DNA of 51,365 nucleotides from a virus, in IMG/VR virus record IMGVR_UViG_3300048033_000777, positions 1 to 51,365 of that record, one strand, 5' to 3'. Positions within the stretch are counted from its first letter, which is position 1; each line of letters begins with the position of its first letter. Positions 9,501 through 26,269 of this stretch are shown here, piece after piece. Both the position numbers and the translations under genes were made by a program. Below the pieces are notes generated by a model. That model was given only the letters and a program-made list of their open reading frames with translations. It was not told the DNA's origin and made no database searches.

Positions 9501-12500
9501 CAATTGAGAATTCATCAACAGTAACACCTTTTCTAAAGCCAAGTTCTGTAGCACCAGTAATACCAATTTCACCTTTAAATGTAATTTTACCCTGTGCTTG
9601 GTCTACAGCAAAGAATTGACCAACACGGAAGAAACCATATTGGTCCGTTGACATCCAGAACACACGCCCTTTACGTCTTTCCCAAACTTGCGAACTTGTT
9701 GCATTTGGCTGATCTGAATAAAATTCTGCTAACGAATTTTCAGGCTCGCCTAAAATAACATTTGGATAGTTACTTTGGTTAAACGAACCTGTACCAATTT
9801 GAGTAAAATCGTGTCCAGTTGCACGACATAACGAAATTTTAACTGTAATTTCTGCTGTACTATCAATTGGTAGACCTGCATAAACAACTCTATCATTTGA
9901 TGTCATTGCTGCTGCTAGTCCAAAAGTTGGTCCAGCATTAATATCAGCTACGGGCATTGGGTCAATATTGATCGATCCTGTATCATCGCCATTATCAGTA
10001 AATCCTACAATTTGATGTGTTGCTCCATTGTAAGTAAATATTTGTCCGCCTGCATAGCCATCTACATCGAGCGGAATAGTAGATACATCATTGATGCCAT
10101 CAGTTACTATATCAAATAAGAATCCCGCATCAGCTGCTGCACTAACTTCAGCTGCCGATCCTGAAGTGTCTTGTGTATAACCATTACCGTTTGTTACTGT
10201 CCAAGCAGTACGAGGTAAAATATATTGTGTAATAATTTCTTTTGCTTTGTCAATTGCTTGTACTGTTTCGCCATCTTGATCACCAGGTAGTTGTAACACT
10301 GTACCAATATAATATTTGTTTGCATTTTGTACAGCACCAGCATTACCGCCATATAGTAAGTCCATTGCAACGCCACGAACAATTAAACCTGTATCTCTAT
10401 AACATTTTCTTTGATCATATGTCAACGAAGGGAATGTAGCATTTATCCATGCTATTACTTCTTCTTGCACAAATCGTAGGTTTCGTGCAATTAAGTTATG
10501 TGCGTTTGGATATAGTGTTGCTACCGGTGGTTGGTTTCCATAAATGTCACGAGTTAGACGAGTTGCAAGTGTTGAGTTAATATCAGGAACATCGTCGCCG
10601 CCTGTAAAGATAGCAAGTGTGGTATCGCCTGCTGCGCTACCATTTCCACCTGATAACCTAGTTGAATCTGTATACAACTCAATAAAATCAAATGGTGTAT
10701 TAAATGTAGTTTGAACCGTAAAATCGCCTAAGTCATCTCCGTAGTTATTAACACCAGAGAACGCAACAGATCTATATGTAATATCATCAGTTTCGTCAAA
10801 GTTAACGGCTGTACTTGGACGCTCAACAATATTTGTCTTATCTCTAATACCGTCAAACGTATGTGTTTCGGAAGGTCTTAATTCAACAAAATCGCCATTA
10901 TTAATAGTACCTTGCAAGGTATTGAAGAAATCGCCATTTTCACCGTTTGTTTGGCCAGTTAACTGTAATACATAAATGTCGTCGTTATATACACCGCCTG
11001 TTGTTGTTTCGTCAGTATTTCTGCTAACAGCACCAATTGTATATCGTTTAACTCCGACATCAACTGGCGATCCATCAATTGTTTGTGTGCCGTGATCAAC
11101 TTGTATAATTGAGTTAGGTAATGGCGGATATTTACAATCTGTAAGTGTTATTGCTCGCTGTCCGTATTCGTTTGAGTTACCTCCGCTAACTGGGTATACA
11201 ATAGATTTACCAGGTAATGTCATGTCTTGAGCGTATACAACTTGATCCGGAATTTCGTTTGGATCAGCGCCTTCAGCAACAAGACCAAAATTACCGTAAC
11301 CGTTAGAACCGTTTAGTGATCTAATCTCTGAACCGTTCTTCGCATAGTACGCTGCCTGACAGTAGTATGTAAACATAGATACCATCTCAGAGAACGCACC
11401 GTTGTTTGTAACAAGTCCATAACCTAAGTCGTTAATTTGTGTAAAGTCGTTACCGAGCATAGAACGGTTACCAGCTGTTTGTAAGTAAACCGTTCTACTA
11501 ATATTACCTCTGTTTTCATCAAATTGCGTTTCATCAAATCCTGCGCCGCTATTTGATGTAGAATCTAAGTATAGTTTACACCAACCGTTACCTTGGCTAT
11601 AATCGGATATTGCGTTTACTTGGAAACGTCTACCTTCTATATAGAAAGGACAAGGTAATTGTGGCTGCCTAATAAATAAACCTTGTCCTTCTTCTGAGCG
11701 TACCCAAATTTCAAAATTACTTATTTTACCACTTACTGGATTACCTTCGCCTGTAGGGTCAATTGTTTCCGGAATGTACACAGGCAAGTTTCCTGTGTAA
11801 GCATCAACAAACATACCTCCACCAAATATTTTCTCGTTGCCCTTAGACTTAGAAAAACTTGAACCAGTTTGAATATATGGAGATTTAGTTAAAATTTGTC
11901 CATCAGGGTCAAGTACAAGTAAAAATCCACCATGTCCTTGTACAGTTAAATTACGCAAAATAGTTGCATCATTCATTAAGAATGCATCCATTTCGTCATT
12001 ACGTTTTGGTGGGTTATAATTAGGATCAAATGCAAATACAACTTTATCTAGTAAGTTAGATACAACAATATTCGAGTTTACTTCACCTGTACCAAATTTA
12101 AAATCAGGTTCGATATAATCGACATCAGTTGGAGTTTGTTCTAGCAATCCTATTGGATATGATCCGTCAAATAGTTGTTCTGCAATATCGGAAATTCTTA
12201 AAATAGCTGCTTTAGTAGCGTTTTCTTGTCCGCCAAAGCCACCATTGTTATACTGCAAAATATAGCTATTATAATACTCACCTTGTACTTCTGTTGAATA
12301 CTGCGATCCGCCTATTAATAAATCTTCACTAAGTGCATCGATAATTAAGCCAACATCGCGTCTACACTTATCAGCGTTGTAGTTTAATACAGTAAGTGCG
12401 CTATCGTCGTTAAATGTTAGGATAGACGGAATTAATCCAGCTACGTTTGAATCAATACTTGACTTCGCTGCAATTAGCCCAGCATCACCTGCTGAAAGTA

Positions 12501-15500
12501 CTGGATAATTTTGTGTGCCAAGATTTAATAAGTTATCGTTGTTTATTTGAGTGAATACAATGTTAATGTATCCAGCTGTTAATGCTACCTCAGTTGATGT
12601 CCCAGGATTGTTTGTTGTATCCTGAGTTTCCTCATTTCCGGTCGTTGGAGTAATTGGAGTTTCTAAGATAATATCTTCAATAATTGATTCTAAATGTGTT
12701 AGTGTCTGTAACGTTTCTTCTCTTGTTGTAATTTCAAGTCTAATAACATCTTGTATATAAAGATCTTTAGCAAACTCAATAGTACCCCAGTTTCCGCCAT
12801 ACAAAAGGTCATGTGTAATTGCATCAACTAAGTTTCTAAAATCACGTAAACGTATGGCATCGTCAAAATATTTTCTAGGTGCTATTGATTTAAGATATGC
12901 TAGACCTTCTTGTGCAATAAATTCTTTATTTGCCTGTAGTTGATCTTTAGCAAAAACTGCATTAGGAGTACTACCTTCAAAATTATTAAATGTTATCGGA
13001 AGTGTTGCACCGGTATCAGTGTCAAGTTCGCCATTTTGAATAATGTTTATAATTTCATCAAAAAGTGGATCTGCCAAATTGCCAACATTAGGATATGTCG
13101 ATACTAGTGCCTTTGCTTGTGTTAATGCACTTGCCCAAATATCTTTTAATTTTTGATCTCTATAAATTGACTTAGATCTTTGGAATTGAAGTCCTCTAGT
13201 TACAGAATGGTATGTAGTTCGTAGAACAATATCATATGTAATACTTGTTAATATATCTTCTAAGTCTGCACTAAATTGATCTTTATCGTACAAAATGTCG
13301 TTTACATTATTGTTGATATAATTGATAATTTCTTCTTGAATAAACTTTTTGTTTTCGTGTAATATAGCTGCTGAGTTTTCATAGCCACCAGCGTTAGTAA
13401 CAGGCAATCCAATATTAATTTCTTTTTCAGGATTACTTAGATAATGATAGCCAAAGTGTCCTTGGAATTCTCCTGTCTGATTATAGAATCTTGCGCCTTT
13501 TTCTGCTACAGTAATACCGTCAAATTCTCTGTCACGATACATATAAGTTTCTGCCCAAGGTGATTGAGAAATACGTCTCTTAGGACGCACAATTACTCGT
13601 CTAAATTCGTCACCTTTAATAGATACGTTTGCTGCAACTTTAATTGGATAGTCTTCTTCGTATTGACCCGATTCAACAAAAATTGTAATTTGTTTTCTAT
13701 TAACAAAGTTTCCGTATTCTAAATCTTCGTTGTTTACAAAGGAAATTGGTTTAAGAAGGTGTACTTCTACTACATCGTTAAGTCCAGTCACATCAGGATT
13801 AAGAGGATCATCAGTTTGGTAATAGTTAACAATTCTACCCTGTGCTCCAGATATCTTACCAACTATTACTTTACCTGGTATAATATCTCTATTGGTTGTT
13901 TTAGCTTGGTCAACACTTGAACCGTTGCCTGGATTCAAGTAAATAAAGTATGTTTTACCATAGTTAAGAACTTGTCCTTCGTCTAGTCCAGCTGTCATAA
14001 TTTCAATTAACAAGTCAAATTTATCACTTACACCTGTTCTTGCACTAGCATCTGCTTGACTACCTACAAAGAATTGTTTTTCATCAGTTTGATAAACTTG
14101 TCCAATAACCCCGCCTGATTCGTATTCTGTTAGCTCTTGTGTATTAACCGGTATGTCTAGTGCTTCGTCTTCAAAAATTTCAAACTCTGTATCAGTTATT
14201 CGTTTGACATAGTAAAAATTATCATTTACTTCGGTCATTCCTACTACATCGGTAATTTTGATAATATTTTTATCTACTAAATCGTGTGGAGCAGTTGTTG
14301 TTATTAAACCAATTTGATTCTGTGTAATACTATCAATTGGAGTTTGATTAAATGGTCTATTTAATAGTGCTGCTGCAACTACATCTTTTGCATGTTCGAT
14401 AGCATCAACAGTTTCGACAACTTGACGAGTAATAGCAATACGTCCACTTGAATTTGCATAATAACGCTCGCCAGCCTTTCTTGTTAACGAGTTTGCGTTG
14501 TTTAGTGTTGCACTAAAACTTTTTGCAATATCAAATGCAATAGCATCAAGAATTAAACGAGTGTCTCTCTCACATGTTTCAATGTTATAATCAAAGTCAG
14601 GATATTTAAATTTAATATACGCACTAACCTCTTTAGTAATAAACTCTCTATTTGATTCAATTACATCTTTTGCAAATGTAAACTGCGGTAAAGGATTATT
14701 AAAGTTTGCTTGCGTAACAATTGAATTTGCAGCGCCTTCATCGATAGTAATTGTTTGGAAATACGGACCTGGCTCAGCTTCTGAAGCACGAATCATTTCT
14801 TCTGCACGACGAGCTGCTGCATTAATAGAAGAATACGCATAGTTAAACGATGTACCTTCTTTGCCTGCTGGTACTCCACGCATTGCATCATCGCCTTGTG
14901 TACTTACAAACAAGTTATCAACTGCTGAATAAGATGTATTATCTACATAATATTTCGTTGCTGCTTGTAATTCTTCGGGAACATTTGTAAGGCCAGCAAG
15001 TTCTCCTGGACTATCATTAAGAATTAATGGTCCAGTCATCGAATCGCCTTGACGTCTTACAGCACTTTTACGAGGTATTGCTTCGTTGGACAAAAAGAAT
15101 CCTTCTAAGGTTTCATCGTATCCTGTATCAACAAATGAATGATTGTCGTCTGATGCAATAATTCCAGTAACATACAGCTTGTTTAATTCAGCATCAGCCT
15201 GGCTTTGTACTTTTGCATCTTCCTTTGTAGCATGAATACTAAGCTGGTCTGGACTTGCGTATCTTATATAGTATACGCCATTTGTAACTATTCCTGTTGG
15301 GTCGTTGTCTTCTGCATTAAATCTATATTCGCTTCCGTTAACTGTTCTATCAAATCCGTGAGAGTTAACAATCATATTACCACTAGCGTAACCATTTACA
15401 ATTAGAGTATACTCATCAGCATTTAACGGCTCGTCTGCCAAACGAATAGGTAAATCGCCTGCAATATATCTGCCGTCAGCATATCCTTTTGTAATAACTA

Positions 15501-15987
15501 GATCGTCAATTGTAATATCCGGTTGATTGTGTACATCGTTAAAAGCACGTACAGCATCGTCACTAATTGATAATGAACCTAATGCAATTGGCGTAATAGC
15601 ATCTGTTCCTCGTCCACGAGCATCTAACGGACCGCCTAGTTTAGGTGATAAATCTTGACTTACTTGTCTAAATGCAGTTCTTAAGATAATTTTATCACGA
15701 CTTGGAGTAAACTCAATCAAAATACTATCTGTGTCACCACCAATAGCTTCGTCACTAGCAAACTCTACTAGATCAAATGCTGTTGCACCATCGTTTACTA
15801 ATGGAATTGTATTTGGCAATAAGTTATCAGGTGTGTCGCCTAGTGTAGTGAAACTAATTTGACCGCCTTCGCCAAATACTGCGTAAATCTCGTTAAAGTT
15901 TTCATTTACTTTACGAAACGATTCACGTATACTATCACCAGTGCCGTCATTACCCTCAACACCAATATCAATTTCTTGTTTAGCCAT
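6529..15987 (-). CDS. Giant tail fibre protein (3152 aa) with C-terminal peptidase G2-like domain
   Basis: This is the largest gene of the window. Residues 8-30 carry the NDGTGD fibre module. The body is beta-rich with several repeated phage-type segments: three or more copies of a helix-rich unit containing RDxxLIxDAIxxDLLYGGN-like sequence, and long Ser/Thr/Asn shaft regions. The last 130 or so residues (YADLAENY, then PGTVLVLGG, then RVIGVVTTNPAHLMN) match the peptidase G2 / intramolecular chaperone family that trimerises and may cleave itself from fibre proteins. It probably forms a host-recognition fibre or spike. A GGAG ribosome binding site precedes the ATG. Length is unusual even for marine T4-like phages. 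Confidence 0.85.
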   Translation of the reverse strand: MAKQEIDIGVEGNDGTGDSIRESFRKVNENFNEIYAVFGEGGQISFTTLGDTPDNLLPNTIPLVNDGATAFDLVEFASDEAIGGDTDSILIEFTPSRDKIILRTAFRQVSQDLSPKLGGPLDARGRGTDAITPIALGSLSISDDAVRAFNDVHNQPDITIDDLVITKGYADGRYIAGDLPIRLADEPLNADEYTLIVNGYASGNMIVNSHGFDRTVNGSEYRFNAEDNDPTGIVTNGVYYIRYASPDQLSIHATKEDAKVQSQADAELNKLYVTGIIASDDNHSFVDTGYDETLEGFFLSNEAIPRKSAVRRQGDSMTGPLILNDSPGELAGLTNVPEELQAATKYYVDNTSYSAVDNLFVSTQGDDAMRGVPAGKEGTSFNYAYSSINAAARRAEEMIRASEAEPGPYFQTITIDEGAANSIVTQANFNNPLPQFTFAKDVIESNREFITKEVSAYIKFKYPDFDYNIETCERDTRLILDAIAFDIAKSFSATLNNANSLTRKAGERYYANSSGRIAITRQVVETVDAIEHAKDVVAAALLNRPFNQTPIDSITQNQIGLITTTAPHDLVDKNIIKITDVVGMTEVNDNFYYVKRITDTEFEIFEDEALDIPVNTQELTEYESGGVIGQVYQTDEKQFFVGSQADASARTGVSDKFDLLIEIMTAGLDEGQVLNYGKTYFIYLNPGNGSSVDQAKTTNRDIIPGKVIVGKISGAQGRIVNYYQTDDPLNPDVTGLNDVVEVHLLKPISFVNNEDLEYGNFVNRKQITIFVESGQYEEDYPIKVAANVSIKGDEFRRVIVRPKRRISQSPWAETYMYRDREFDGITVAEKGARFYNQTGEFQGHFGYHYLSNPEKEINIGLPVTNAGGYENSAAILHENKKFIQEEIINYINNNVNDILYDKDQFSADLEDILTSITYDIVLRTTYHSVTRGLQFQRSKSIYRDQKLKDIWASALTQAKALVSTYPNVGNLADPLFDEIINIIQNGELDTDTGATLPITFNNFEGSTPNAVFAKDQLQANKEFIAQEGLAYLKSIAPRKYFDDAIRLRDFRNLVDAITHDLLYGGNWGTIEFAKDLYIQDVIRLEITTREETLQTLTHLESIIEDIILETPITPTTGNEETQDTTNNPGTSTEVALTAGYINIVFTQINNDNLLNLGTQNYPVLSAGDAGLIAAKSSIDSNVAGLIPSILTFNDDSALTVLNYNADKCRRDVGLIIDALSEDLLIGGSQYSTEVQGEYYNSYILQYNNGGFGGQENATKAAILRISDIAEQLFDGSYPIGLLEQTPTDVDYIEPDFKFGTGEVNSNIVVSNLLDKVVFAFDPNYNPPKRNDEMDAFLMNDATILRNLTVQGHGGFLLVLDPDGQILTKSPYIQTGSSFSKSKGNEKIFGGGMFVDAYTGNLPVYIPETIDPTGEGNPVSGKISNFEIWVRSEEGQGLFIRQPQLPCPFYIEGRRFQVNAISDYSQGNGWCKLYLDSTSNSGAGFDETQFDENRGNISRTVYLQTAGNRSMLGNDFTQINDLGYGLVTNNGAFSEMVSMFTYYCQAAYYAKNGSEIRSLNGSNGYGNFGLVAEGADPNEIPDQVVYAQDMTLPGKSIVYPVSGGNSNEYGQRAITLTDCKYPPLPNSIIQVDHGTQTIDGSPVDVGVKRYTIGAVSRNTDETTTGGVYNDDIYVLQLTGQTNGENGDFFNTLQGTINNGDFVELRPSETHTFDGIRDKTNIVERPSTAVNFDETDDITYRSVAFSGVNNYGDDLGDFTVQTTFNTPFDFIELYTDSTRLSGGNGSAAGDTTLAIFTGGDDVPDINSTLATRLTRDIYGNQPPVATLYPNAHNLIARNLRFVQEEVIAWINATFPSLTYDQRKCYRDTGLIVRGVAMDLLYGGNAGAVQNANKYYIGTVLQLPGDQDGETVQAIDKAKEIITQYILPRTAWTVTNGNGYTQDTSGSAAEVSAAADAGFLFDIVTDGINDVSTIPLDVDGYAGGQIFTYNGATHQIVGFTDNGDDTGSINIDPMPVADINAGPTFGLAAAMTSNDRVVYAGLPIDSTAEITVKISLCRATGHDFTQIGTGSFNQSNYPNVILGEPENSLAEFYSDQPNATSSQVWERRKGRVFWMSTDQYGFFRVGQFFAVDQAQGKITFKGEIGITGATELGFRKGVTVDEFSIDDTMVDESDNAIPVESAIVKYINRRLGRDKDDNEVLSSDRIGPTFLPLSGSAEMEADLQMGSFKIENLATPTSNSDAATKSYVDLQLLANDSIDSLRESTKNDVDEGDFLVYTGLRKALISVPDGGIFEVSDIISDGTGTKTATIRDIVQTTDAIVGENEPGNAIWIITYALAIGSGDFNLENIEGTGLKSSVSAQILRGPFDEIANARNTAGSDIEFSITRTPAVLDDLLSGPIAEFDIQISEDVILNANISPSAGIAQSKLLMERAGTLDSSVGLYGSGDDVGQASRGLSVFDSSNFTEELQLTLSGNLTATAGDYIYQGSNVGEVVNNVTNSVLVVIRTSDNWISNSDVIEKTNFDTNGQESAKTAVTGVTVTNVKASGYIGLAPRSINLDRLSPISTDVVLGRSKLGAGDVDEISFETVTKEGFAITDADVRDSTIVGLSGQKLNFTTFVDAIDGEVVSQGNTQGTVQGTVYQANSIYVIDVINTITNNAATFINGSVTGSQSGAIGTVNEVNTNVNLSGSVVVKQEEGIYGTVPVSIGSAGNSVARRNENGSLQATSLIIGSSSTNEVMVESGGSLVIKTPTQGTILSSAGQTKPTLASGGNISVGDIGSAATAASAFQENSIWGVEGAAIPADIEISALASRWIYSSFIEAPGEKDDTSTGISIGAGTGFDSAGANAIVLVTNGSERIVVAANSTTINGSLTVTSGAINTNNSVNITAGGNLDIKKDNGSDQAFLIDGTTGNTTISGTLGVTSTITTNADLAVGTSASIAGGYGNTGVSISSGGNISTNGNIQVDGNLEVDGNVDLGNANSDTVTFTGRVDSNIEPDSTANNRNLGNSSRQWNTVYATTFSGTATTAKYADLAENYLGDNDYDPGTVLVLGGEHEVTMCTSKSDTRVIGVVTTNPAHLMNSELKGEHVVAVALTGRVPCKVIGQVAKGDMLVTSAVPGYAIVNNTPGVGQVIGKAVGTKDDEYHGVVEVLVGKS

Positions 15988-16008
15988 TTTAAATTTGCTC
16001 CAGTTATA

Positions 16009-16359
16009 TTATAATGGAATAGTATCCATATTAAAGTTTATGCTAACGCCGCAGCCGCATGCTGACTGCGCATTAGGATTTCGTATTTCAAAATTTGAAC
16101 CTACTAAACTTTTTACATAGTCTATTTCAGTTCCAATTAAAAACATAACAGAATGCTTGTTAATTACAAAGTTACCTCGATCACAAGCGACTATTTCATC
16201 GCCTTCTTCTAGATCTTCTACTTGTGCTGTGCCCCAATCATATTCAAATCCGGCGCAGCCGCCGCCTTTAATGTTTAATGTGATAGCATAACAATCATTT
16301 TCCTCACATAATGTGCTGATTTGATGGTTAGCTGCTGGAGTTACTGTACAAATAGTCAT
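16009..16359 (-). CDS. IscA/HesB-like iron-sulfur cluster carrier
   Basis: A 116-residue protein, the usual size for A-type Fe-S carriers. The three conserved cysteines are visible: C35 in GGGCAGFEY, and C101 and C103 in the C-terminal ACGCGVSINF. Members bind a 2Fe-2S or 4Fe-4S cluster and hand it to client proteins. Phage copies are known in marine T4-like phages. Here a radical SAM protein lies 2.3 kb away and could be a client, which is inference. The start has AAGGA nine bases upstream and a late promoter at 16381-16388. Confidence 0.9.
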   Translation of the reverse strand: MTICTVTPAANHQISTLCEENDCYAITLNIKGGGCAGFEYDWGTAQVEDLEEGDEIVACDRGNFVINKHSVMFLIGTEIDYVKSLVGSNFEIRNPNAQSACGCGVSINFNMDTIPL

Positions 16360-16380
16360 GTTTTTTTAATTCCTTACTGT

Positions 16381-16388
16381 TATTTATC
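16381..16388 (-). promoter_or_regulatory. T4-type late promoter GATAAATA
   Basis: The minus strand reads GCGATAAATAAC, 21 bases upstream of the IscA-like start. It diverges from the plus-strand late element at 16409-16416, so this 60-base gap is a divergent late promoter region. Confidence 0.7.
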
Positions 16389-16408
16389 GCATGTTTTTAT
16401 AATCTTAA

Positions 16409-16416
16409 TGTAAATA
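16409..16416 (+). promoter_or_regulatory. Late promoter-like TGTAAATA, leaderless type
   Basis: TAAATA ends five bases before the ATG at 16422. T4 late transcription starts about six bases after this element, so the transcript should begin at or next to the A of ATG. No Shine-Dalgarno is present. Confidence 0.5.
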
Positions 16417-16421
16417 TAGTT

Positions 16422-16709
16422 ATGTTTATAAAAGAATATAAAAGGCAAACGCGGCACGTTCGTAAATCAAAAACCGGCAAGGAACATGCTTATACACGCG
16501 AGCAAACTATATGTTTGTTTAGATGTGATAATTGTAATGCAGAGTTCGAACGTACTAGAGGAAGCATGGATCCAAAAAGATTAAGTAATTCCTACTTTCA
16601 CGTATGTGAGACCTGCGATAGTAAGAAATTTGCTCAAAAGAAAGGCGTAGAACAAAAGCAAAAATGGAATATGAGTGCTTCTAGCTCTACGCCAATTGGT
16701 AGGTTATAA
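16422..16709 (+). CDS. Zinc-ribbon-like small protein
   Basis: A 95-residue basic protein with two CxxC pairs, CDNC near residues 35-38 and CETC near residues 62-65. This spacing suits a zinc ribbon. Basic N- and C-terminal tails suggest nucleic acid binding. It may act on DNA or RNA but no specific function can be assigned. It is one of only four plus-strand genes in the window and has no ribosome binding site. Its ATG lies five bases after a late-type TAAATA. It converges on the 24-residue gene at 16711. Confidence 0.75.
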   Translation: MFIKEYKRQTRHVRKSKTGKEHAYTREQTICLFRCDNCNAEFERTRGSMDPKRLSNSYFHVCETCDSKKFAQKKGVEQKQKWNMSASSSTPIGRL

Positions 16710-16710
16710 A

Positions 16711-16785
16711 TTATTTGCCTTTAGAACCAAACTTAGTTGATGCTTTTAGGTTGTCTTTTTTCTTTTGAGTCCATGATTTAGCCAT
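16711..16785 (-). CDS. Tiny basic protein (24 aa)
   Basis: The frame reads MAKSWTQKKKDNLKASTKFG and ends SKGK. It is strongly basic (eight Lys), without hydrophobic stretches. The ribosome binding site is probably AAGAAAGAAA, located inside the 3' end of the gene at 16787-16954, whose stop is two bases away from this ATG. The tight packing with that gene supports a coupled pair. Function is unknown. The short length makes the call tentative. Confidence 0.5.
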   Translation of the reverse strand: MAKSWTQKKKDNLKASTKFGSKGK

Positions 16786-16786
16786 A

Positions 16787-16954
16787 TTATTTTTCTTTCT
16801 TAAATAGTGTCCAAGCACCGTATGCAATTGCACCGTATGCTACTAAACTTGCAATTGGTTTAAAGATTAGAAACGCAACACCTGCACCAATTAGTACAGC
16901 ACCGTCAAGTGTAGTGCGTTCTTTTAAACGAGAATTAATCCATTTACGTATCAT
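16787..16954 (-). CDS. Small membrane protein (55 aa)
   Basis: The frame starts MIRKWINSRLKERTTLDGAV and then has two hydrophobic stretches (about residues 17-30 and 33-48) before a basic tail KKEK, consistent with one or two inner-membrane helices. An excellent ribosome binding site (AAAGGAGACAG) precedes the ATG. I recall similar short proteins in T4-like cyanophages. Function unknown. It is adjacent to the 24-residue gene and transcribed away from the plus-strand gene at 16994. Confidence 0.7.
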   Translation of the reverse strand: MIRKWINSRLKERTTLDGAVLIGAGVAFLIFKPIASLVAYGAIAYGAWTLFKKEK

Positions 16955-16980
16955 AACTGTCTCCTTTGATATATTATTTA

Positions 16981-16988
16981 TTTAAATA
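16981..16988 (+). promoter_or_regulatory. Late promoter-like TTTAAATA, leaderless type
   Basis: TAAATA ends exactly five bases before the ATG at 16994 and there is no Shine-Dalgarno. This is the same geometry as at 16409, 26275 and 48834. Confidence 0.5.
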
Positions 16989-16993
16989 TAAGC

Positions 16994-17575
16994 ATGGCAA
17001 TACATACTTATCCAATGTTTATTACTCCTTTGTGGATTGATGATTTTGATGCTCATTTAGAATGTCAACAATCGTATATAGATTATATTGAAGATACAAA
17101 TAGAGAAGACCACAATTCTTCTTTTATAACTTCTGGAGAGTTACATAACAATACTATATTTGAACCTTTAGTACAGTATCTAACTCATATTTCAAAAGAA
17201 CTAGTAAACATATGGGAACTTGAAACTAATATGACACAAATTGGTATACAACAAATGTGGGGAAGTTGTGCAAGTCCGGGTGGTCTACTGATGCCAATAA
17301 TGGTTCCAAATGCATTTGTAACAGGAACATACTTTGTTAAAACACCGCCTGAATCAGGAACATTGCTTATTGATAATCCAAATACTAATTTAGATTTTTA
17401 CGCTAATATGCACCGAAGAGACACAAATGAGTTTAATGTTGACAAGTATGAAACTGTTATGCCAGAAGGATCAATAGCATTATATCCGGGTAATTTGAGA
17501 AGTATTGTTACAACGAATAATAATCCTACAGAAAACAGATATGTAATTCACTTTAGTTTAGCACTAGTAAGTTGA
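16994..17575 (+). CDS. 2OG-Fe(II) oxygenase-like protein lacking metal ligands
   Basis: A 193-residue protein with the layout of the phage oxygenase family (compare 49961-50503): a MWG segment, then a glycine-rich turn, VTGTYFVKTPPESGTLLIDNP, and a C-terminal PEGSIALYPGNLRS followed by ENRYVIHF. In active relatives the first region has H-x-H or H-x-D before GxYY, and the second has a His after the P-G-x-L turn. Here these positions read LLMPIMVPNAF and NLRSIV, so no Fe ligand triad is visible. It may be a non-catalytic relative or partner. It overlaps the opposing gene at 17548 by 28 bases. Confidence 0.65.
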   Translation: MAIHTYPMFITPLWIDDFDAHLECQQSYIDYIEDTNREDHNSSFITSGELHNNTIFEPLVQYLTHISKELVNIWELETNMTQIGIQQMWGSCASPGGLLMPIMVPNAFVTGTYFVKTPPESGTLLIDNPNTNLDFYANMHRRDTNEFNVDKYETVMPEGSIALYPGNLRSIVTTNNNPTENRYVIHFSLALVS

Positions 17576-18627
17576 TTGATTAAATCAACCGGTGAAGAAG
17601 TAATATTTAATTTTTGGTATAATTTTCGATTATATTCAAGTGTTGGCATTAAATCAATATAAAGTTGATGATGTTCTTCAATAGTTAAACTTGCTAGATA
17701 GTCGATCTGAAGTTTAATTTGTTTAAATCTTTCATCCGGATCTTCAATACTATCATAACTTTCGTCTATAATATTATTAAATGTTTTAAATCCAAGCTGC
17801 TTTAAAGAATGCAAAGTATGTGGTAATCCTATTACAATAAACGGATGATAAAATAATATTGATTTTAACACTTTTTCAGTCCATCCCAAATATTCATCAG
17901 AATAAAAATCTCTTTCACCAATTAAACTCCAATACGAGTTTTGATAAAATTTAAGAGGATTCTGCAAATGCTTTCTATTATTAGTGTCATCTAAGATAAG
18001 AGGTAGTATGTCATATAGACGATTAATAGTACTTGGAGGAAGTCGCTTTAGTTCTAAATCTAAAATACTGTTTTCATTTAAACTATGTAATTCAAGTTTA
18101 TCACAACTTACAATAGAAGTTTTTAATAAGTTTTTTTCTATAAGATAATCAACTAATTGTAATCTATGTGTACGTGTTTGTTTATTAAGTGATAAAAATT
18201 TATTGTTTCTTAATTCTAAGTTTGGGCTAATTTCTTCTTGGACATATATATTATCATAATGACTGTATATTATATGAAAACTAAAAAAATATACATTTTT
18301 ACCAGTTAATTTTTCATTACTAGAACATATTGCGTAGTTAACACCGAGTGACATAATTTTATTAACTTGTTGCTGTGTTAATAATCCTTCGTAAGTATCA
18401 TCAATTACTATAAGGTCATTTTTGTTAAATTTTATATTAAGTAAATCGTCAAAATTTGATCCAATATTTTCAAAGAACAAAATGCTATTATCAGATAAAT
18501 TATCTTCGTATAATAAATTAATTGTTTTTAAAAAACTCCATAGCCGAGACGATGTTATTCCTTTAGATGGAAGCACTCCAAGAGATATTTTTTTAATAGG
18601 TTTAGGAGGCTTATAAAGGTTTTTCAT
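17548..18627 (-). CDS. Glycosyltransferase-like protein
   Basis: About 359 residues from the ATG at 18627. A TTG 18 bases upstream is an alternative. The C-terminal half has the pattern WSLIGERDFY, then WTEKVLKSILFYHPFIVIG, then LKQLGFKTFNNIIDESYD, which resembles the TEK/PFI-G/GFKTF-DESYD block of exostosin- or fucosyltransferase-like families. A KFLSLNKQTRTHRLQLVDYL segment precedes it, also typical of those proteins. The sugar and acceptor cannot be predicted. It is the last gene of the six-gene coupled cassette and overlaps the radical SAM gene by 17 bases. Its 3' end converges on the plus-strand gene at 16994. Confidence 0.65.
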   Translation of the reverse strand: MKNLYKPPKPIKKISLGVLPSKGITSSRLWSFLKTINLLYEDNLSDNSILFFENIGSNFDDLLNIKFNKNDLIVIDDTYEGLLTQQQVNKIMSLGVNYAICSSNEKLTGKNVYFFSFHIIYSHYDNIYVQEEISPNLELRNNKFLSLNKQTRTHRLQLVDYLIEKNLLKTSIVSCDKLELHSLNENSILDLELKRLPPSTINRLYDILPLILDDTNNRKHLQNPLKFYQNSYWSLIGERDFYSDEYLGWTEKVLKSILFYHPFIVIGLPHTLHSLKQLGFKTFNNIIDESYDSIEDPDERFKQIKLQIDYLASLTIEEHHQLYIDLMPTLEYNRKLYQKLNITSSPVDLINQLTSAKLK

Positions 18628-19495
18628 GGAACGTGCCTTTAACAACTGCTTCCGGTTGGTCTTTTAATACTGGCTTAGCAGGACACATTGCGCATATAGG
18701 GTGCGGCTCTTCAATGTTATGTATAAATCCTTGTAACTCATACTCAGAACAGTCAAGAGATAAACCTTCGTATTTAAGATACGGTGCCCAATCTTTGTCT
18801 TCAAGCATATTGTATTTTTTAGCATGTGTTTTTAACATACTAATAGGCGGACATTTATATAATTTGTTCTTATATATAATAGGATAAACATCAGCATTAC
18901 AAAAATTATAACTACTAACAGGATCATTATCTTGCCAAGGTTTTAATACACCATTTATATTCTGCCTATAATCATACCAACCACCGGCCGTTGGATCAGT
19001 TATTTGTAATTCAACATTGTGTTCTTTATGACGCCATAATCCGTTTCCTTCGTCTATCCATTTTCTTGCACTACGAATAATATGTGTTTGAATATTATCT
19101 AATACTGTTTGTCTAAGTTTTTCGTCTTTATGATGTAGTGTAATACTTAATTTACTAGGCTGGGCAGCAACAAGAGCATCAAATAATTCATTTCGTTTAG
19201 GTAAAAGAAACCCGTTTGAAAACACTTCAATTTTAGCATGATTAAACGTTCGTCTACTATGCTCAATTATTTCATATATCTTAGGATGTATAAGAGGCTC
19301 GCCCCCAATAATAGTAAAATTATTTGGGTCTAGGCGCTTACTCCATTTTGTCATGTTGATTTTCATTTGATCAAAATCTTCATGCCAGGGATGGTCGTAG
19401 TCAATGAACCGGTCACAACCAGGGCATGCTAAGTCGCAGCTAGTTGTGACCATCCATTCTAAATAATTTAAAAAATAGCCCCTAGGATCAATCAA
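18611..19495 (-). CDS. Radical SAM protein with C-terminal cysteine region
   Basis: The CX3CX2C cluster motif is seen as SCDLACPGC (C20, C24, C27 counted from the TTG at 19495), followed by the GGEPL SAM-binding motif. The C-terminal part has further cysteines (FCNAD, KCPPIS, then ICAMCPAKP) that could hold auxiliary clusters as in SPASM-type enzymes. So it likely generates a 5'-deoxyadenosyl radical to modify a peptide or small molecule. The TTG at 19495 has GGA nine bases upstream and overlaps the amidinotransferase stop by eight bases. An earlier TTG at 19531 lacks a ribosome binding site. The substrate is unknown. Confidence 0.8.
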   Translation of the reverse strand: MIDPRGYFLNYLEWMVTTSCDLACPGCDRFIDYDHPWHEDFDQMKINMTKWSKRLDPNNFTIIGGEPLIHPKIYEIIEHSRRTFNHAKIEVFSNGFLLPKRNELFDALVAAQPSKLSITLHHKDEKLRQTVLDNIQTHIIRSARKWIDEGNGLWRHKEHNVELQITDPTAGGWYDYRQNINGVLKPWQDNDPVSSYNFCNADVYPIIYKNKLYKCPPISMLKTHAKKYNMLEDKDWAPYLKYEGLSLDCSEYELQGFIHNIEEPHPICAMCPAKPVLKDQPEAVVKGTFHEKPL

Positions 19496-20549
19496 AATAG
19501 TTTTCCAACGAACCTTTGCGTTTAGTGTCAAGTGTCACACAATGAAATCCGCCACTGAGTGTACGTGCTTGACGCATAGGCAGTCCAATAGTTTCAATAC
19601 CGTGTTTGTTAAGTTCTCTGCGAACGTAGTCTTGATTCTCATCAATAATAACTAGTTCTTCGTTTACACTTAGCATATTTAATCCGATGTATTTAGAACA
19701 TGGCGATACATTACCTACTAAATTAGAACCAATGTCTACTACTTCGTCCCCAGGTATATAAATTTTATCCCAATCTTTAAAAATAGGGGGATACCAATCT
19801 GGAGTACAGCGATCTCCATTGAATAATACTAGTCCAGGGCGTAGTGGAATAACAGTTGAATCAAAATGTGAGTAGCTGTAGAATTTCTCTGCTAAATGAA
19901 TACGGTAACCACGCGGTTCTAATGTGTTTTTAAGCCACTGATACCCCCACATATTACCCGAATTAGAAACTTGATATAATAAGTCTTTACCTAAACGTAC
20001 TACATTAGGAGCATCAAACACAACCTCTTCGTTTGTTAGTGTTGGAATACTTAAATCGTCTAATTGATAACTATCGTCACGTAGTCTCGGACGCGGTGCT
20101 GCTAACCATTCTGTTCCTACTGCAAGAGTTTCATACATAAACGGACGATACGCTAATGTTTCGTATTGGCGAGCTCGCATTGCTCCTGGACAATCAATAA
20201 TAAGGTTATCCAAAGGTAATAGCAAGTCACGTGGACAATATGTATACCAGCCAGTTGTTTCCCAGTCTGGTGATTTAAACGATACTGAATGATCAATTGC
20301 TTCAGGACGTCTTACTTTTACGCCTAGACCTTCTAACGTTGTTTGAAGCCCGTTAAGGTCTTCATTTGCTTCATCTACCACCCATTGCGGACTTGGGCCT
20401 TCTAAGTCTTTAATTTGGTCGTATGTACAATCTGCAAATCCAAAACTGTGTGTTGATTTATCAACTGTAGGAATACGTGCATGATCTGCAATACCTACAA
20501 AAATTTCTTCTAGTGGATCCCAGTCGTTATGACTACTTACTATTGACAT
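19488..20549 (-). CDS. Glycine amidinotransferase family protein
   Basis: A 353-residue protein. The C-terminal block LSGGFHCVTLDTKRKGSLENYFD closely parallels the active-site end of arginine:glycine amidinotransferases, with C337 as nucleophile. H228 in SHFDSTVIPLRPG and D179 in FDAPNVVRLGKD fit the rest of the Asp-His-Cys triad. The family moves the amidino group of arginine to an amine such as glycine or an aminocyclitol. The acceptor here is unknown. GGAG lies nine bases before the ATG. It overlaps its neighbours on both sides (17 bases upstream, 8 downstream), so it is made with the aminotransferase-like and radical SAM proteins. Confidence 0.88.
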   Translation of the reverse strand: MSIVSSHNDWDPLEEIFVGIADHARIPTVDKSTHSFGFADCTYDQIKDLEGPSPQWVVDEANEDLNGLQTTLEGLGVKVRRPEAIDHSVSFKSPDWETTGWYTYCPRDLLLPLDNLIIDCPGAMRARQYETLAYRPFMYETLAVGTEWLAAPRPRLRDDSYQLDDLSIPTLTNEEVVFDAPNVVRLGKDLLYQVSNSGNMWGYQWLKNTLEPRGYRIHLAEKFYSYSHFDSTVIPLRPGLVLFNGDRCTPDWYPPIFKDWDKIYIPGDEVVDIGSNLVGNVSPCSKYIGLNMLSVNEELVIIDENQDYVRRELNKHGIETIGLPMRQARTLSGGFHCVTLDTKRKGSLENYFD

Positions 20550-21405
20550 ATAATTTTTCTCCTATTAATTCTGATACACAAACTCTATTAACTTCGGTAC
20601 CTCTATTCATCATTTCCCACTCTTCACCGCCTAATCCGAACATAATACAATTAGTACTGTTTAAATTATTTTCTATACAAACGTCCATGTAAATATCCTC
20701 ATGGGTATTCCAGTTATAATCTATACTATACTCATTGATTAAACTATTAGCAATACTTAATGAAACTCTGTTGTGCATATCGACAGAATTGAATACATCA
20801 ATACCATCGTCAGTGTCTTTACGTTCTAAACGCATACCTACCCGCAAAAACTCTGCACCATAAAATGCTTTTGAAATACTAAATGTTATAGTTTCTACAC
20901 ATGAGTATTTGTTTAAATCTAATACTATATTCTTAGTACATGGATAGTATGCAAAATCTAGTAGCACAGGTATGTTTAATGCTTGACAGTTATGTAATAT
21001 AAATTCTAATTTACTATGCTGTGTTCCGTAGTCTGAAAAAGGAACACTAATAATTACTGCATCATTAGAATTTAATTTGTTGTCATCTAAATATTGCCAA
21101 GTACCACCATGTTTTAAAACTGCACTATGATACATAAATTCGCCACGAAAGAATCTAAATGTTCTATTTTTGTGACGCCAATACCAATGATCAAATGCTT
21201 GTGCAGAGCCTGATACTAGTTTACGATTTGTAAATAATTCTAAACCTTTTAACTCGTTTAGTTTACTTGAATTGATCCAATTAAAATAATTTTCTGTAAA
21301 TTCACTAGGAATATTACTGTTATATAAATCTTTTGTAGGATTTAGATTTTGTATAAATTCTTTTACACTAGGATCAACTAAAGGCTTAGCCCCTCTTAAA
21401 TTCAT
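20533..21405 (-). CDS. PLP-dependent aminotransferase-like protein (fold type I, short)
   Basis: A 290-residue protein with the core motifs of fold type I PLP enzymes. It has IPVLLDFAYY (D150 and Y153, the pyridine-N and O3' contacts), then TFSISKAFYGAEFLRVGMRLER, with K179 as the predicted Schiff-base lysine and an Arg that could hold the cofactor phosphate. It is about 80-100 residues shorter than usual class I/II aminotransferases, so it may be a reduced enzyme. Reaction and substrate are unknown. GGAG is six bases before the ATG. It overlaps the oxygenase gene upstream by 20 bases and the amidinotransferase downstream by 17. Confidence 0.7.
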   Translation of the reverse strand: MNLRGAKPLVDPSVKEFIQNLNPTKDLYNSNIPSEFTENYFNWINSSKLNELKGLELFTNRKLVSGSAQAFDHWYWRHKNRTFRFFRGEFMYHSAVLKHGGTWQYLDDNKLNSNDAVIISVPFSDYGTQHSKLEFILHNCQALNIPVLLDFAYYPCTKNIVLDLNKYSCVETITFSISKAFYGAEFLRVGMRLERKDTDDGIDVFNSVDMHNRVSLSIANSLINEYSIDYNWNTHEDIYMDVCIENNLNSTNCIMFGLGGEEWEMMNRGTEVNRVCVSELIGEKLYVNSK

Positions 21406-21904
21406 TTAATACTCCGGTTACTTGCATGGTGTATTTTGTTGTCATACCCATGTTGCCGCTAAGATGCGGCTCATTACATTTTATTAGTATAGCATCACCT
21501 TTGCTCCAATGCAAGACCGAATTTTCATTTATTTCAAAATAATGCCCACTTTGCCAATCTTCTAAAAATATGTTTACACGGACACATTCTCGTGGATCTA
21601 TTTTGTTTAACTTAGCAAACATATAAAATGTATCATCGTGTACAGGTAATGTTTGTCCTGGAGGTTGTTTCATAATGCCAACACTGTATCGTGGAAATAG
21701 TGTTTCACAAAAATTATGCACTTCAAGGTCTACATTAAATGCACGATAGTACATCGAATTAAACGGTGTATAACCTGCATCTCGATAGCGTTCGTTTTGT
21801 TCTTCAAACTCACGAGCATGTCCTTGCAAGGTAACATTATCTTCTTTTTCCCAGCGATAATTTTTATAATTGAAATCTGGTAATTTTAAATTTATTTTTC
21901 CCAT
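21386..21904 (-). CDS. Fe(II)-dependent oxygenase or cupin-like protein
   Basis: A 172-residue protein with a double-stranded beta-helix pattern. PPGQTLPVHDDTFY supplies H89 and D91 (H-x-D), followed by RVNIFLEDWQSGHYFEI, and KGDAILIKCNEPHLSGNMG supplies a distal His (H147). This arrangement fits an aspartyl/asparaginyl hydroxylase-like or cupin oxygenase that binds Fe(II), possibly with 2-oxoglutarate. The substrate is unknown. Its ATG lies in the last codons of the oxygenase gene upstream (13-base overlap) and has no clear ribosome binding site, so translation probably depends on coupling. Confidence 0.65.
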   Translation of the reverse strand: MGKINLKLPDFNYKNYRWEKEDNVTLQGHAREFEEQNERYRDAGYTPFNSMYYRAFNVDLEVHNFCETLFPRYSVGIMKQPPGQTLPVHDDTFYMFAKLNKIDPRECVRVNIFLEDWQSGHYFEINENSVLHWSKGDAILIKCNEPHLSGNMGMTTKYTMQVTGVLNEFKRG

Positions 21905-22647
21905 GGTTTATCGTACGGAACGCCTTCTTCATTATCATACCAATATAAACTGCGATGCGGAGGAAACTTATCGTCATGTTGTGCATTACTTACATAATAA
22001 AACAATCTTAGATTTTTTCTGCTAACTCCAGTTGGAGTTTTCATTGGGTCTGGATAGCCGTGAAATGCTAAATTATCATAACTCCATATAACTAAATTTC
22101 CAGGACCTGGCACTACACTGCTAATAACATCTTTTCTATTTGTATCGTAAAAGTCCAAAGATCCGCCCCATTTTTCTTTCCAATCCTCATTTAAATAGAT
22201 TATAAAACTAAGGCGTCTGTGTAATCTTAATTGATCGTTCCAATTAAAGTCTGAGTGTATTTTTAAACTATCACCATTAAATGCCTTTGCATAACCGGCA
22301 CCTACTAAATGCGGATCTGGAATTAAATCAACAGTGTCAGTTACTTCTTGTAACCACTTTAAAAACGTTGAGCTATGGAGTGCATGTATAACTTCGTCTT
22401 GTATTGGAGTAATATCAAGATTATTATATTCGTACATACAACTTCCATTACGAGTAAATTTTTTGCCTTGTTCTAATGGAAGATTATCTAATTCTAATGC
22501 CATTGCATGTACTATGTCAAGTGGTAAAAAATTTGGAATTTCTATTTTACTATAGCCTGGATGACTACGGTATTCTCTTTGCAATTCATATGTATTCGAA
22601 AAATGTTCTTTTATATGATTAAGAATATGTTCTTTTACGTTTGCCAA
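21892..22647 (-). CDS. 2OG-Fe(II) oxygenase, prolyl hydroxylase-like
   Basis: A 251-residue protein with a full facial triad: H131 and D133 in KIHSDFNW and H196 in NLAFHGYPDP. An Arg about 14 residues later (GVSRKNLRLFYY) can bind 2-oxoglutarate. The segment RRLSFIIYLNEDWKEKWGGSLDFYD is typical of the prolyl-4-hydroxylase-like family. It is the first gene of the six-gene cassette. The start is TTG with AAGGA seven bases upstream. Hydroxylation of a small molecule or peptide is the likely reaction, but the substrate cannot be inferred. It diverges from the SAP-like gene at 22707. Confidence 0.85.
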   Translation of the reverse strand: MANVKEHILNHIKEHFSNTYELQREYRSHPGYSKIEIPNFLPLDIVHAMALELDNLPLEQGKKFTRNGSCMYEYNNLDITPIQDEVIHALHSSTFLKWLQEVTDTVDLIPDPHLVGAGYAKAFNGDSLKIHSDFNWNDQLRLHRRLSFIIYLNEDWKEKWGGSLDFYDTNRKDVISSVVPGPGNLVIWSYDNLAFHGYPDPMKTPTGVSRKNLRLFYYVSNAQHDDKFPPHRSLYWYDNEEGVPYDKPWEK

Positions 22648-24312: not shown

Positions 24313-24340
24313 ATTATAACACCTTATTTCCAATTGTCAA
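24313..24340 (-). promoter_or_regulatory. Sigma-70-type early promoter for UVDE
   Basis: The minus strand has TTGACA (24340-24335), 16 bases and then TATAAT (24318-24313). The -10 box ends five bases before the ATG at 24307, which favours the internal ATG at 24274 as the real start. Confidence 0.7.
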
Positions 24341-25163
24341 CCACCCACGGATCTTCGCAGTTGTGTGGATTTGGATCTCCGTGGAATACTGCAATACAAC
24401 AATTAGTATCTGGAATTACATTTTCAATTATTCTTAACTTACGTTGTCCGCGAGGCATGCCGTATCTAAGATCCTTGCTCTTTCTTATTTCCCATTTCCA
24501 ACTTTTAATCCATTCGTCTGGAAATAGTTTTGCAGGGTTGTGTATATGTGTTACTTCCCATAGCCAATCTTGATCTCCGTGATGCTTGCGTTCGATTGCT
24601 TTTTGATTTTCTTTAAACTGCGTCCATAAATATGATAATTCTCCTGTTTTAAACCGTATAACACTACTGTTGTATTTGTCCCAATTTGGCCGCATTTTAC
24701 GGGTAAAATCTCTTATAGTACACCAGTGGTTTGATTCATATGTAAATAAATGATCAATGTTGTTTGCAATTACAACATCTAAATCCATATAAAGTATAGT
24801 GCCTTTTAATGGTAAATCATTTGAAAAGAGGTAAGGTTTGCACCACCAGCCTTTTAAAAATTCTGGTAATATAAAAGTTTTAATATTTGGATTTAACATG
24901 CTTATATCGTCAGTTAAACAAACAAACTCTATATCTAGTGTGCAGTTACGCATAACCATATTATATAGTTTGTTTACATAATCCGCAGAATACTTTGTGC
25001 CGTGTTTTAGGCACAGCACATAGTATTTGTCTTTGATTAAAGGATTAGAGTTGTACGGCTCGTCTATACGACCTGACTCTTGATCTAGCTTTGCTAGTTT
25101 TTCAAGAGCTTTTCGTTGCTTACGCTTTTCTTTAGACTCGCCGTCAACATACTTTTTAACCAA
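24324..25163 (-). CDS. GT8-like glycosyltransferase
   Basis: A 279-residue protein. After a Lys/Glu-rich N-terminal extension (about residues 1-40) comes KYYVLCLKHGTKYS, then FVCLTDDI. A nucleotide-sugar-binding DxD motif is seen as LYMDLDVVIANNIDHLF, and then SSVIRFKTG and HGDQDWL, a pattern typical of GT-A enzymes such as GT8. It may glycosylate phage DNA, virion proteins or host glycans, which cannot be decided here. The start is TTG with GAGG eight bases upstream, immediately after the QueD stop. Confidence 0.75.
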   Translation of the reverse strand: MVKKYVDGESKEKRKQRKALEKLAKLDQESGRIDEPYNSNPLIKDKYYVLCLKHGTKYSADYVNKLYNMVMRNCTLDIEFVCLTDDISMLNPNIKTFILPEFLKGWWCKPYLFSNDLPLKGTILYMDLDVVIANNIDHLFTYESNHWCTIRDFTRKMRPNWDKYNSSVIRFKTGELSYLWTQFKENQKAIERKHHGDQDWLWEVTHIHNPAKLFPDEWIKSWKWEIRKSKDLRYGMPRGQRKLRIIENVIPDTNCCIAVFHGDPNPHNCEDPWVVDNWK

Positions 25164-25166
25164 CCG

Positions 25167-25616
25167 TCACGCCTCGTAAATAGCCGAGTTAGCACCATGC
25201 TCTGCACACTCTGCTCGCACACAATAACAACGATTGTCAGTTGCTTCGCGAATCAGTTTGTCTGCAAAGTTAAATGCATGTTCTGCAAACTTCTCTGCAC
25301 CCACGCCATCAAAGATACGTAGCTCTGCTAGACCTTTTGCTTCTAAATCTTTTAGTGTTTCCATATGCGGGTCGTTTGCATCTACTGCTACCTTGTGATC
25401 GAAACTATCTTCGAGCCAAGCCTTCAAAGGTTTGAGTCCTCCAAAGTCTACTGCCCAATTTTTGTTGTCTAGTTCGTCACATCCAAATGTAAATGTAAAT
25501 GCTAGACTGTATCCGTGTAGCAGATGACAGTGTGAGTGATCTGCATTAGGTTGACGGAACACTGCTGATAGTCCAATGTTGTGTCCGTAGTGTTTTGTGC
25601 TTAGATGTCTTGCCAT
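25167..25616 (-). CDS. queD: 6-carboxytetrahydropterin synthase-like protein (QueD/PTPS family)
   Basis: A 149-residue protein. Zinc-binding histidines appear as DHSHCHLLHGYS with a further N-terminal His. VDFGGLKPLKAWLEDSFDHKV and a C-terminal AECAEHGANS complete the family signature. QueD converts dihydroneopterin triphosphate to 6-carboxytetrahydropterin, the second step of 7-deazaguanine synthesis. No QueC, QueE, FolE or DpdA homologue is seen in this window, so it either complements host enzymes or works with genes outside the window. A sigma-70 promoter lies about 70 bases upstream. Confidence 0.88.
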   Translation of the reverse strand: MARHLSTKHYGHNIGLSAVFRQPNADHSHCHLLHGYSLAFTFTFGCDELDNKNWAVDFGGLKPLKAWLEDSFDHKVAVDANDPHMETLKDLEAKGLAELRIFDGVGAEKFAEHAFNFADKLIREATDNRCYCVRAECAEHGANSAIYEA

Positions 25617-25678
25617 ATATTTCTCCTATTAAATATGTGGCGGCAGAATTAGAAGGGTTGACGCCAAGTCCTTATTTA

Positions 25679-26269
25679 CTATATATTATAGTATATGTTA
25701 CTTATGTTGTCAACCGTTACGTTAGGGTTATTCCAGATTGCCGGTAAATTCCAGTCTGGTTCTTGATATATTGTAAATTTTATTTTAGGAAAGCATCTAA
25801 ATATCATGCTTATTTGGTGTATCCAGTAACTAGGATCAACAGCTCGTTTGTCTGCACTATCGTAGTTAGGTGTGCTTTTGTATATGTTGTTAACAGTTTT
25901 GGTATTACTGTGTAAATCAAATCCTAATAGATTTACGTCTTCGCTAAGTTTTGCACCTAGCAATACAGCATAAGGACCACTTCCCCATTGAAAGGGCTCG
26001 TCCCACCTGTCACTGCCTACATATGGTAATAACGGTACTGTTCTAATTCTTTTGTGTTCTTTGTAATTATTAACCCAATTTTCTCTAGTATATATTAGAG
26101 AGTGTTCGTTTGCGCCTTGTTTGATTGCTTCTGTAACCATTCTACGGTCAACACATACTAAATGGTTTACTTTAAAGTCTCGATGTATAGCATTACATCC
26201 GATCTTAATGCTGTCAATTGCATCAATATCAATGCCCGTGCGACTTTCACCATTTCCTATTACTAACAT
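25679..26269 (-). CDS. Unknown protein with Rossmann-like N-terminus
   Basis: A 196-residue protein starting MLVIGNGESRTGIDIDAIDS, followed by KIGCNAIHRDF and NHLVCVDRRMV. A GNGxS turn followed by C-N-A-I-H and C-V-D strands resembles small phage proteins of the sialyltransferase-like or DUF115-like group, but I cannot assign a reaction. A late-type element lies five bases before the ATG (26275-26282), overlaps the stop of the upstream gene, and leaves no room for a ribosome binding site. Expression is therefore probably leaderless. Confidence 0.6.
   Translation of the reverse strand: MLVIGNGESRTGIDIDAIDSIKIGCNAIHRDFKVNHLVCVDRRMVTEAIKQGANEHSLIYTRENWVNNYKEHKRIRTVPLLPYVGSDRWDEPFQWGSGPYAVLLGAKLSEDVNLLGFDLHSNTKTVNNIYKSTPNYDSADKRAVDPSYWIHQISMIFRCFPKIKFTIYQEPDWNLPAIWNNPNVTVDNISNIYYNI
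25685..25713 (-). promoter_or_regulatory. Sigma-70-type early promoter for queD
   Basis: The minus strand has TTGACA (25713-25708), 17 bases and TATAAT (25690-25685). It overlaps the 3' end of the gene at 25679-26269 and points at the QueD-like gene (ATG 25616), giving a leader of about 60 bases. Confidence 0.7.

Follow-up and report, generated by a model that had tools for sequence, protein, structure and literature searches.

The IMG/VR virus record IMGVR_UViG_3300048033_000777, which is 51,365 bases long and was analysed as a whole (hereafter the window), carries six minus-strand genes that overlap one another in succession between positions 17548 and 22647. On balance, we read this cassette as a phage route to a guanidino sugar or guanidino cyclitol, which would then be attached to an acceptor. 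A preliminary description, made from the sequence alone, had proposed a natural-product or peptide-tailoring pathway leading to a guanidino compound. A guanidino product is still the best reading, whereas peptide tailoring is not supported, no precursor having been found. The six genes, and a neighbour that is likely associated with them, are as follows.

21892..22647, minus strand: OX1, a prolyl-4-hydroxylase-type 2-oxoglutarate (2OG)-Fe(II) oxygenase of 251 amino acids (PF13640, HxD...H)
21386..21904, minus strand: OX2, a small 2OG-oxygenase-like protein of 172 amino acids (weak PhyH match, HxD...H)
20533..21405, minus strand: PLP, a shortened fold-type-I pyridoxal-phosphate (PLP) enzyme, aminotransferase-like, of 290 amino acids (AlphaFold2/Foldseek, cofactor residues)
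19488..20549, minus strand: AMID, a StrB1-like arginine:X amidinotransferase of 353 amino acids (1BWD match, triad)
18611..19495 (readable from 19531), minus strand: RSAM, a Twitch-type radical S-adenosylmethionine (SAM) enzyme (PF04055, seven cysteines)
17548..18627 (readable from 18645), minus strand: GT, a probable GT-B glycosyltransferase (AlphaFold2 and Foldseek)
16994..17575, plus strand: a convergent 2OG-Fe(II) oxygenase of 193 amino acids, TIGR02466/PF13759 family (PF13759, phrog_81)

A check of the open reading frames (ORFs) of the window recovered all six genes with their coordinates. Overlaps of 13, 20, 17, 8 and 17 bases, as first described, were reproduced if RSAM starts at the second TTG (19495) and GT at the ATG at 18627; the longest ORFs of RSAM and GT give overlaps of 44 and 35 bases instead. 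In marine phages whose proteins have diverged far, the gene order is the same and three of the overlaps (13, 20 and 8 bases) are found again; these overlaps are therefore not an accident of one genome. When compared with two relatives, all six genes were found to be under purifying selection (dN 0.06-0.48 vs dS 0.6-1.9). The idea that the genes form one conserved unit is thus confirmed by order, overlaps and selection alike. A DNA similarity search with the cassette among annotated phages gave no match.

In order to follow the families through viral genomes, IMG/VR viral contigs were scanned with AMID, which gave 212 matching stretches; 80 loci were fetched, many of them incomplete. A sister type of the amidinotransferase matched 330 stretches, and the non-redundant loci numbered 41 for the window type and 43 for the sister type. 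The earlier view that such genes are unusual on a phage is, given these counts, wrong. All six families were found together in 34 of the 80 fetched AMID loci, even though many of these are incomplete. PLP was present in 39 and OX2 in 36 of the 41 window-type loci, and where a locus held both PLP and AMID the two were at most 150 bases apart in 52 of 75 cases. Complete or near-complete cassettes occur in several settings, either 3' of a UV endonuclease gene, which is the arrangement of the window, or 3' of a carbamoyltransferase gene, while a third group has varying genes upstream; in locus L011 the gene row stops after the radical SAM gene. Related phages carrying the genes singly had been named as grounds against a pathway. 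The genes mostly occur as one unit, with two kinds of departure: of 41 newly fetched loci, 8 had OX1 but no amidinotransferase, and 7 of those 8 are short contigs; moreover, the radical SAM family is less faithful, the amidinotransferase being absent from 32 of 77 newly fetched loci. Eighteen of these 32 (L291-L317) carry a NodU/TobZ-like carbamoyltransferase instead, which suggests a separate radical SAM/carbamoyl pair.

The solved structure that AMID matches best is StrB1, an inosamine-phosphate amidinotransferase (1BWD; 325 bits, E 6.8e-96, full-length alignment), followed by HsvA (204 bits), SxtG (191 bits) and human glycine amidinotransferase (185 bits). The catalytic triad D179/H228/C337 and the pair R107-D108 are conserved, as in the arginine:X amidinotransferases of the AGAT/StrB1 type (pentein fold). 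In a phylogenetic tree the phage amidinotransferases form one clade of their own (SH-aLRT 99) inside the StrB1-like family; an Enterococcus record (L003), with its weak alignment and very long branch, was left out of the argument.

Searches of the Protein Data Bank (PDB) with the PLP protein sequence and its profile returned chance or marginal matches only, so that a structure prediction was needed. The protein matched no Pfam family and scored 20.5 bits with the valine-pyruvate transaminase model NF006967 (cut-off 402); no other PLP family was reached. Its AlphaFold2 model (pLDDT 94) had HisC as the best Foldseek match (1uu1, E 2.7e-12), with CobD lower. Among 42 sequences K179, D150 and R188 are invariant and Y153 nearly so (≥90%), which are the cofactor residues of a fold-type-I aminotransferase.

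In the sister lineage, represented by Synechococcus phage S-SCSM2R, whose amidinotransferase is 40% identical to AMID, 39 of the 43 loci encode a 195-residue mini DegT/DnrJ/EryC1/StrS protein (PF01041, ~2e-17; lysine kept in 30/30). Known members of this family aminate keto sugars and keto cyclitols. The mini-DegT protein fills the place of PLP beside the sister amidinotransferase, hence one role appears to be played by two different PLP families, one of them sugar-aminating. Other partners in the same 43 loci are OX2 (35), GT25-like glycosyltransferases (37), carbamoyltransferases (15), NDP-sugar epimerase/dehydratase-like proteins (7) and UDP-sugar dehydrogenases (7). As a control, 32 phage loci of the RSAM family that lack an amidinotransferase were inspected; window-type PLP was found in none of them and mini-DegT in one. 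A mini-DegT relative is also located within the glycan cluster of Flavobacterium phage immuto. The two lineages meet in loci L075-L077, where both amidinotransferase types lie within one cluster, and in the phage-like locus L132, which combines an amidinotransferase 50% identical to that of the window with OX1, GT, mini-DegT and a carbamoyltransferase.

RSAM has a radical SAM core (PF04055, 1.8e-10), and its CX3CX2C motif together with C211, C227, C280 and C283 is invariant in 23 of 23 aligned sequences. The four further cysteines, spaced 16/53/3 in the window protein, would hold one four-ligand auxiliary cluster, as expected of a Twitch domain. Such a cluster has four cysteines in BtrN, the butirosin enzyme that carries out the two-electron oxidation of 2-deoxy-scyllo-inosamine, vs three in MoaA (PMC9012708). 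RSAM thus shares with BtrN the CX3CX2C motif, the single four-cysteine cluster and a position near an aminotransferase gene, but the overall similarity is weak: the best profile match was 7wzv (8.9e-13), then MoaA, and BtrN was matched with an E value of 0.002 over the radical SAM core only. No literature on the 7wzv structure was found.

Both oxygenases of the cassette keep an iron site. OX1 (PF13640, E 1.2e-14) has H131xD133...H196 in 21 of 21 non-redundant homologues, and its solved relatives are OGFOD1 and prolyl 4-hydroxylase; a search of the window for GXY collagen repeats, a possible target of such an enzyme, found none. OX2, which adjoins the amidinotransferase in both phage lineages, shows a weak PhyH match (0.0055, below the Pfam cut-off), and no convincing relative was found when its profile was compared with solved structures; H89xD91...H147 is invariant in 43 of 43 sequences. 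In most complete loci the convergent oxygenase (PF13759, 7.8e-7; phrog_81, 5e-13) stands 3' of the cassette and is encoded by the other strand.

No sequence-family match was found for GT, and its sole profile match, the capsid protein VP4, was discarded as chance. The AlphaFold2 model (pLDDT 80) was matched best by Foldseek to GT-B-type glycosyltransferases, namely SdgB (1.5e-4), EXT1/EXT2 and WaaA, with low TM-scores of 0.3-0.4. Viral relatives of GT include fucosyltransferase-C-terminal, RfaG and GT47 proteins, and one viral homologue is annotated as a UDP-glucose/GDP-mannose dehydrogenase, a UDP-sugar dehydrogenase. The predicted structure makes a GT-B glycosyltransferase the most likely identity of the last gene.

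The preliminary description of the single products stood up unevenly. The prolyl-hydroxylase-like 2OG enzyme (PF13640 match, intact iron site), the short fold-I PLP protein (confident model, HisC match, all cofactor residues) and the radical SAM protein with extra cysteines (four, invariant) hold as described. "Glycine amidinotransferase homologue" was right about the Asp-His-Cys triad but is imprecise, as AMID is clearly closer to StrB1; the "cupin/hydroxylase-like" protein is rather a 2OG-oxygenase-like one with weak PhyH similarity and a kept HxD...H; and "glycosyltransferase-like" agrees with the GT-B-like predicted fold though with no sequence family. A loss of active sites, raised there as an objection, was seen in no member so far as this could be tested, the check covering the five proteins other than GT.

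Taken as a pathway, the six enzymes may act as follows. The first step would be the oxidation by RSAM of a sugar or cyclitol; by analogy with BtrN, the product is probably a ketone. The shortened PLP enzyme would transaminate the ketone to an amine, as its fold, its intact cofactor site and the sugar aminotransferase that replaces it in sister phages suggest. AMID would then move the amidino group of arginine onto this amine, a step for which the reaction class is well supported and the acceptor is presumed. The GT-B enzyme would transfer the resulting sugar, and the 2OG oxygenases could add hydroxyl groups to the sugar or else to the side chain that carries it. For the final acceptor our tentative guess is a virion glycoprotein, for example a tail fibre, because a giant tail-fibre-like gene (6529-15987) lies about 1.5 kb downstream of the cassette in the window's lineage and it is known chemistry for a protein to be hydroxylated and then glycosylated; alternatively, the acceptor may be a glycan of the host envelope.

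Several points weigh against this scheme. We infer all of its substrates and the order of its steps from what was observed, namely the families, their intact motifs, their co-inheritance, the exchange of PLP types and the sugar-type neighbours. The model-based resemblance of PLP is to HisC/CobD, whose substrates are not sugars; the sequence similarity of RSAM to BtrN is weak and partial, and the predicted identity of GT is drawn from a moderate model with low TM-scores. The sequence similarity of AMID to StrB1 does not fix its acceptor, and in pseudouridimycin (nucleoside-antibiotic) clusters amidinotransferases of the superfamily are thought to act on glycine (PMC6586884). Finally, inositol-phosphate synthase (PF07994) was found in none of 12 records, three of them complete genomes, in a search with positive controls; any cyclitol would then need to be supplied by the host.

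The alternative that survives best is modification of an amino acid, free or bound in a protein: the HisC/CobD-like enzyme would derive an amine from an amino acid, AMID would guanidinylate this amine and the oxygenases would add hydroxyl groups, so that the product would be either a guanidino amino acid or an altered residue in a virion protein. The PLP fold, closest to HisC/CobD and also matching the arginine hydroxylase MppP, and the prolyl-hydroxylase-like OX1 would suit this chemistry, but a sugar-aminotransferase family has the PLP role in the sister lineage and the module is surrounded by glycosyltransferase and sugar-nucleotide genes; we consider it unlikely. We next weighed a natural product, diffusible or cell-bound, such as a small aminoglycoside- or guanidino-amino-acid-like metabolite that the host cell releases or in which it is used, and that might, for example, act against a competitor or inhibit a host enzyme, instead of decorating a glycan. 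The enzyme set does resemble antibiotic clusters (StrB1, NodU/TobZ-like carbamoyltransferase), and the phage-like locus L132 also has ORFs that read as halogenase-like and AMP-ligase-like. However, we noticed no gene for a transporter, a kinase or self-resistance among those of the cassette, and the several different glycosyltransferases, together with the GT25-like enzymes, point to the decoration of a polymer or glycoprotein, so that this explanation, too, seems improbable.

Still less probable is hypermodification of phage DNA, with a sugar or amine attached to a modified base, although hydroxymethyl bases are a frequent target of the glycosyltransferases of T4-like phages. A related module is found in Campylobacter phages CP220 and CPt10, and these phages encode DNA modification proteins as well (PMC2853527). 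Against this, no hydroxymethylase of the thymidylate-synthase fold turned up in three complete genomes (S-SCSM2R, CP220, WX1), and 13 of 14 long fragments likewise had none; the single PF00303 match comes from a close relative of the window and is a genuine thymidylate synthase. The suggestion that the genes could modify phage DNA is therefore unlikely to hold for the hydroxymethylpyrimidine route. The hmdU DNA kinase domain gave no match either, in a search without a positive control that is not counted as absence.

The weakest alternative, tailoring of a ribosomal precursor peptide (RiPP) by the radical SAM, PLP and oxygenase proteins, can draw on the frequency of radical SAM/SPASM proteins among RiPP enzymes and on the fact that OX1 matches YhhC, a peptide oxygenase model, albeit weakly and far under its cut-off (3.4e-7), yet we give it very little credence, for the proposed check for precursor genes found no small ORF within 3 kb that is conserved across cassette settings, the few conserved ones being confined to the window's own lineage, nor did we notice a protease, a transporter or a domain for peptide recognition.

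The guanidino-sugar reading also agrees with the sugar-type neighbours of the module, among them a NodU/TobZ-like carbamoyltransferase that lies immediately 5' of the oxygenase genes in five loci. In the window, the stretch 24324-26269 beside the cassette encodes another glycosyltransferase-like protein (phrog_1962) together with a QueD-like and an uncharacterised (phrog_30607) protein, all conserved in close relatives. Also near the cassette, at 16009-16359, we read a small A-type iron-sulfur carrier-like protein, which the window's lineage retains. The tail-protein region of a phage closely related to that of the window contains an ORF that reads as a subtilisin-like protease (L413:12583-14640). 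Loci L328-L404 (for example L351:8001-10483) represent the more numerous sister module, with GT25-like, mini-DegT, OX2 and amidinotransferase genes and often a carbamoyltransferase. In L132, binned as Chloroflexi, positions 7589-18208 hold a dense row of natural-product-like ORFs, which read as B12-type radical SAM-like, halogenase-like, AMP-ligase-like and nitroreductase-like. A Bdellovibrionota contig (L130:521-3412) carries homologues of OX2, AMID and PLP; it was first taken for a phage, but its UvrC-like ORF makes it look chromosomal. This contig is a possible bacterial holder of the core, and the module may extend beyond viruses.

The closest known pathway is the streptidine branch of streptomycin biosynthesis, with the amidinotransferases StrB1 and StrB2 and the DegT/StrS aminotransferase StsC. 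The cassette shares with it a StrB1-like amidinotransferase with the same triad and a paired PLP aminotransferase, of the DegT/StrS family in the sister lineage; the two amidinotransferases of L075-L077 recall StrB1 and StrB2. The logic of oxidation, transamination and amidination would be the same, with different enzyme families for the first two steps in phage. Unlike in streptidine biosynthesis, no inositol-phosphate synthase was found in the 12 records searched, a radical SAM enzyme probably replaces the NAD dehydrogenase, the PLP enzymes are shortened (HisC-like in the window), oxygenases and glycosyltransferases are added, and the amidinotransferases form their own phage clade. Among phages, the S-SCSM2R glycosyltransferase/inosamine-amidinotransferase cluster is similar in its amidinotransferase, its OX2 and radical SAM homologues and its PLP aminotransferase, but has a DegT-type mini-PLP and GT25-like enzymes where the window has a HisC-like PLP and a GT-B protein. 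Campylobacter phages CP220 and CPt10 were described in 2010 as having an interchangeable, likely non-essential block in which a putative glycine amidinotransferase accompanies five radical SAM genes, and for which no pathway was proposed (PMC2853527). These phages resemble the window in combining an amidinotransferase with radical SAM genes, CP220 has nucleotide-sugar transferase-like genes and the related phage WX1 an aminotransferase; their amidinotransferase, however, is just 25-31% identical, and homologues of the window's PLP, OX1 and OX2 were not detected. A search of open-licence papers found no account of the pathway, the CP220/CPt10 paper being nearest, and the cassette would join known enzyme chemistries into a phage pathway for which no description was found in that literature.

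If the guanidino-sugar pathway is real, aminoglycoside-style chemistry would be a common feature of the genomes of marine phages, which would carry two parallel versions of it, each with its own kind of shortened PLP enzyme. It would give testable functions to phage genes that are automatically annotated as "glycine amidinotransferase" or "unknown", and such very small aminotransferases would be of enzymological interest. A more far-reaching version, which we put forward only as a speculation and would ourselves doubt, is a widespread and so far undescribed system of aquatic phages in which shortened PLP transaminases and a radical SAM oxidase supply guanidinylated, in some lineages carbamoylated, amino sugars that are mounted on hydroxylated side chains of virion proteins as a cationic phage glycan, produced through the chemistry of aminoglycoside antibiotics. 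A guanidino sugar would place positive charge on a virion or host glycan, and this could alter adsorption, protection or superinfection.

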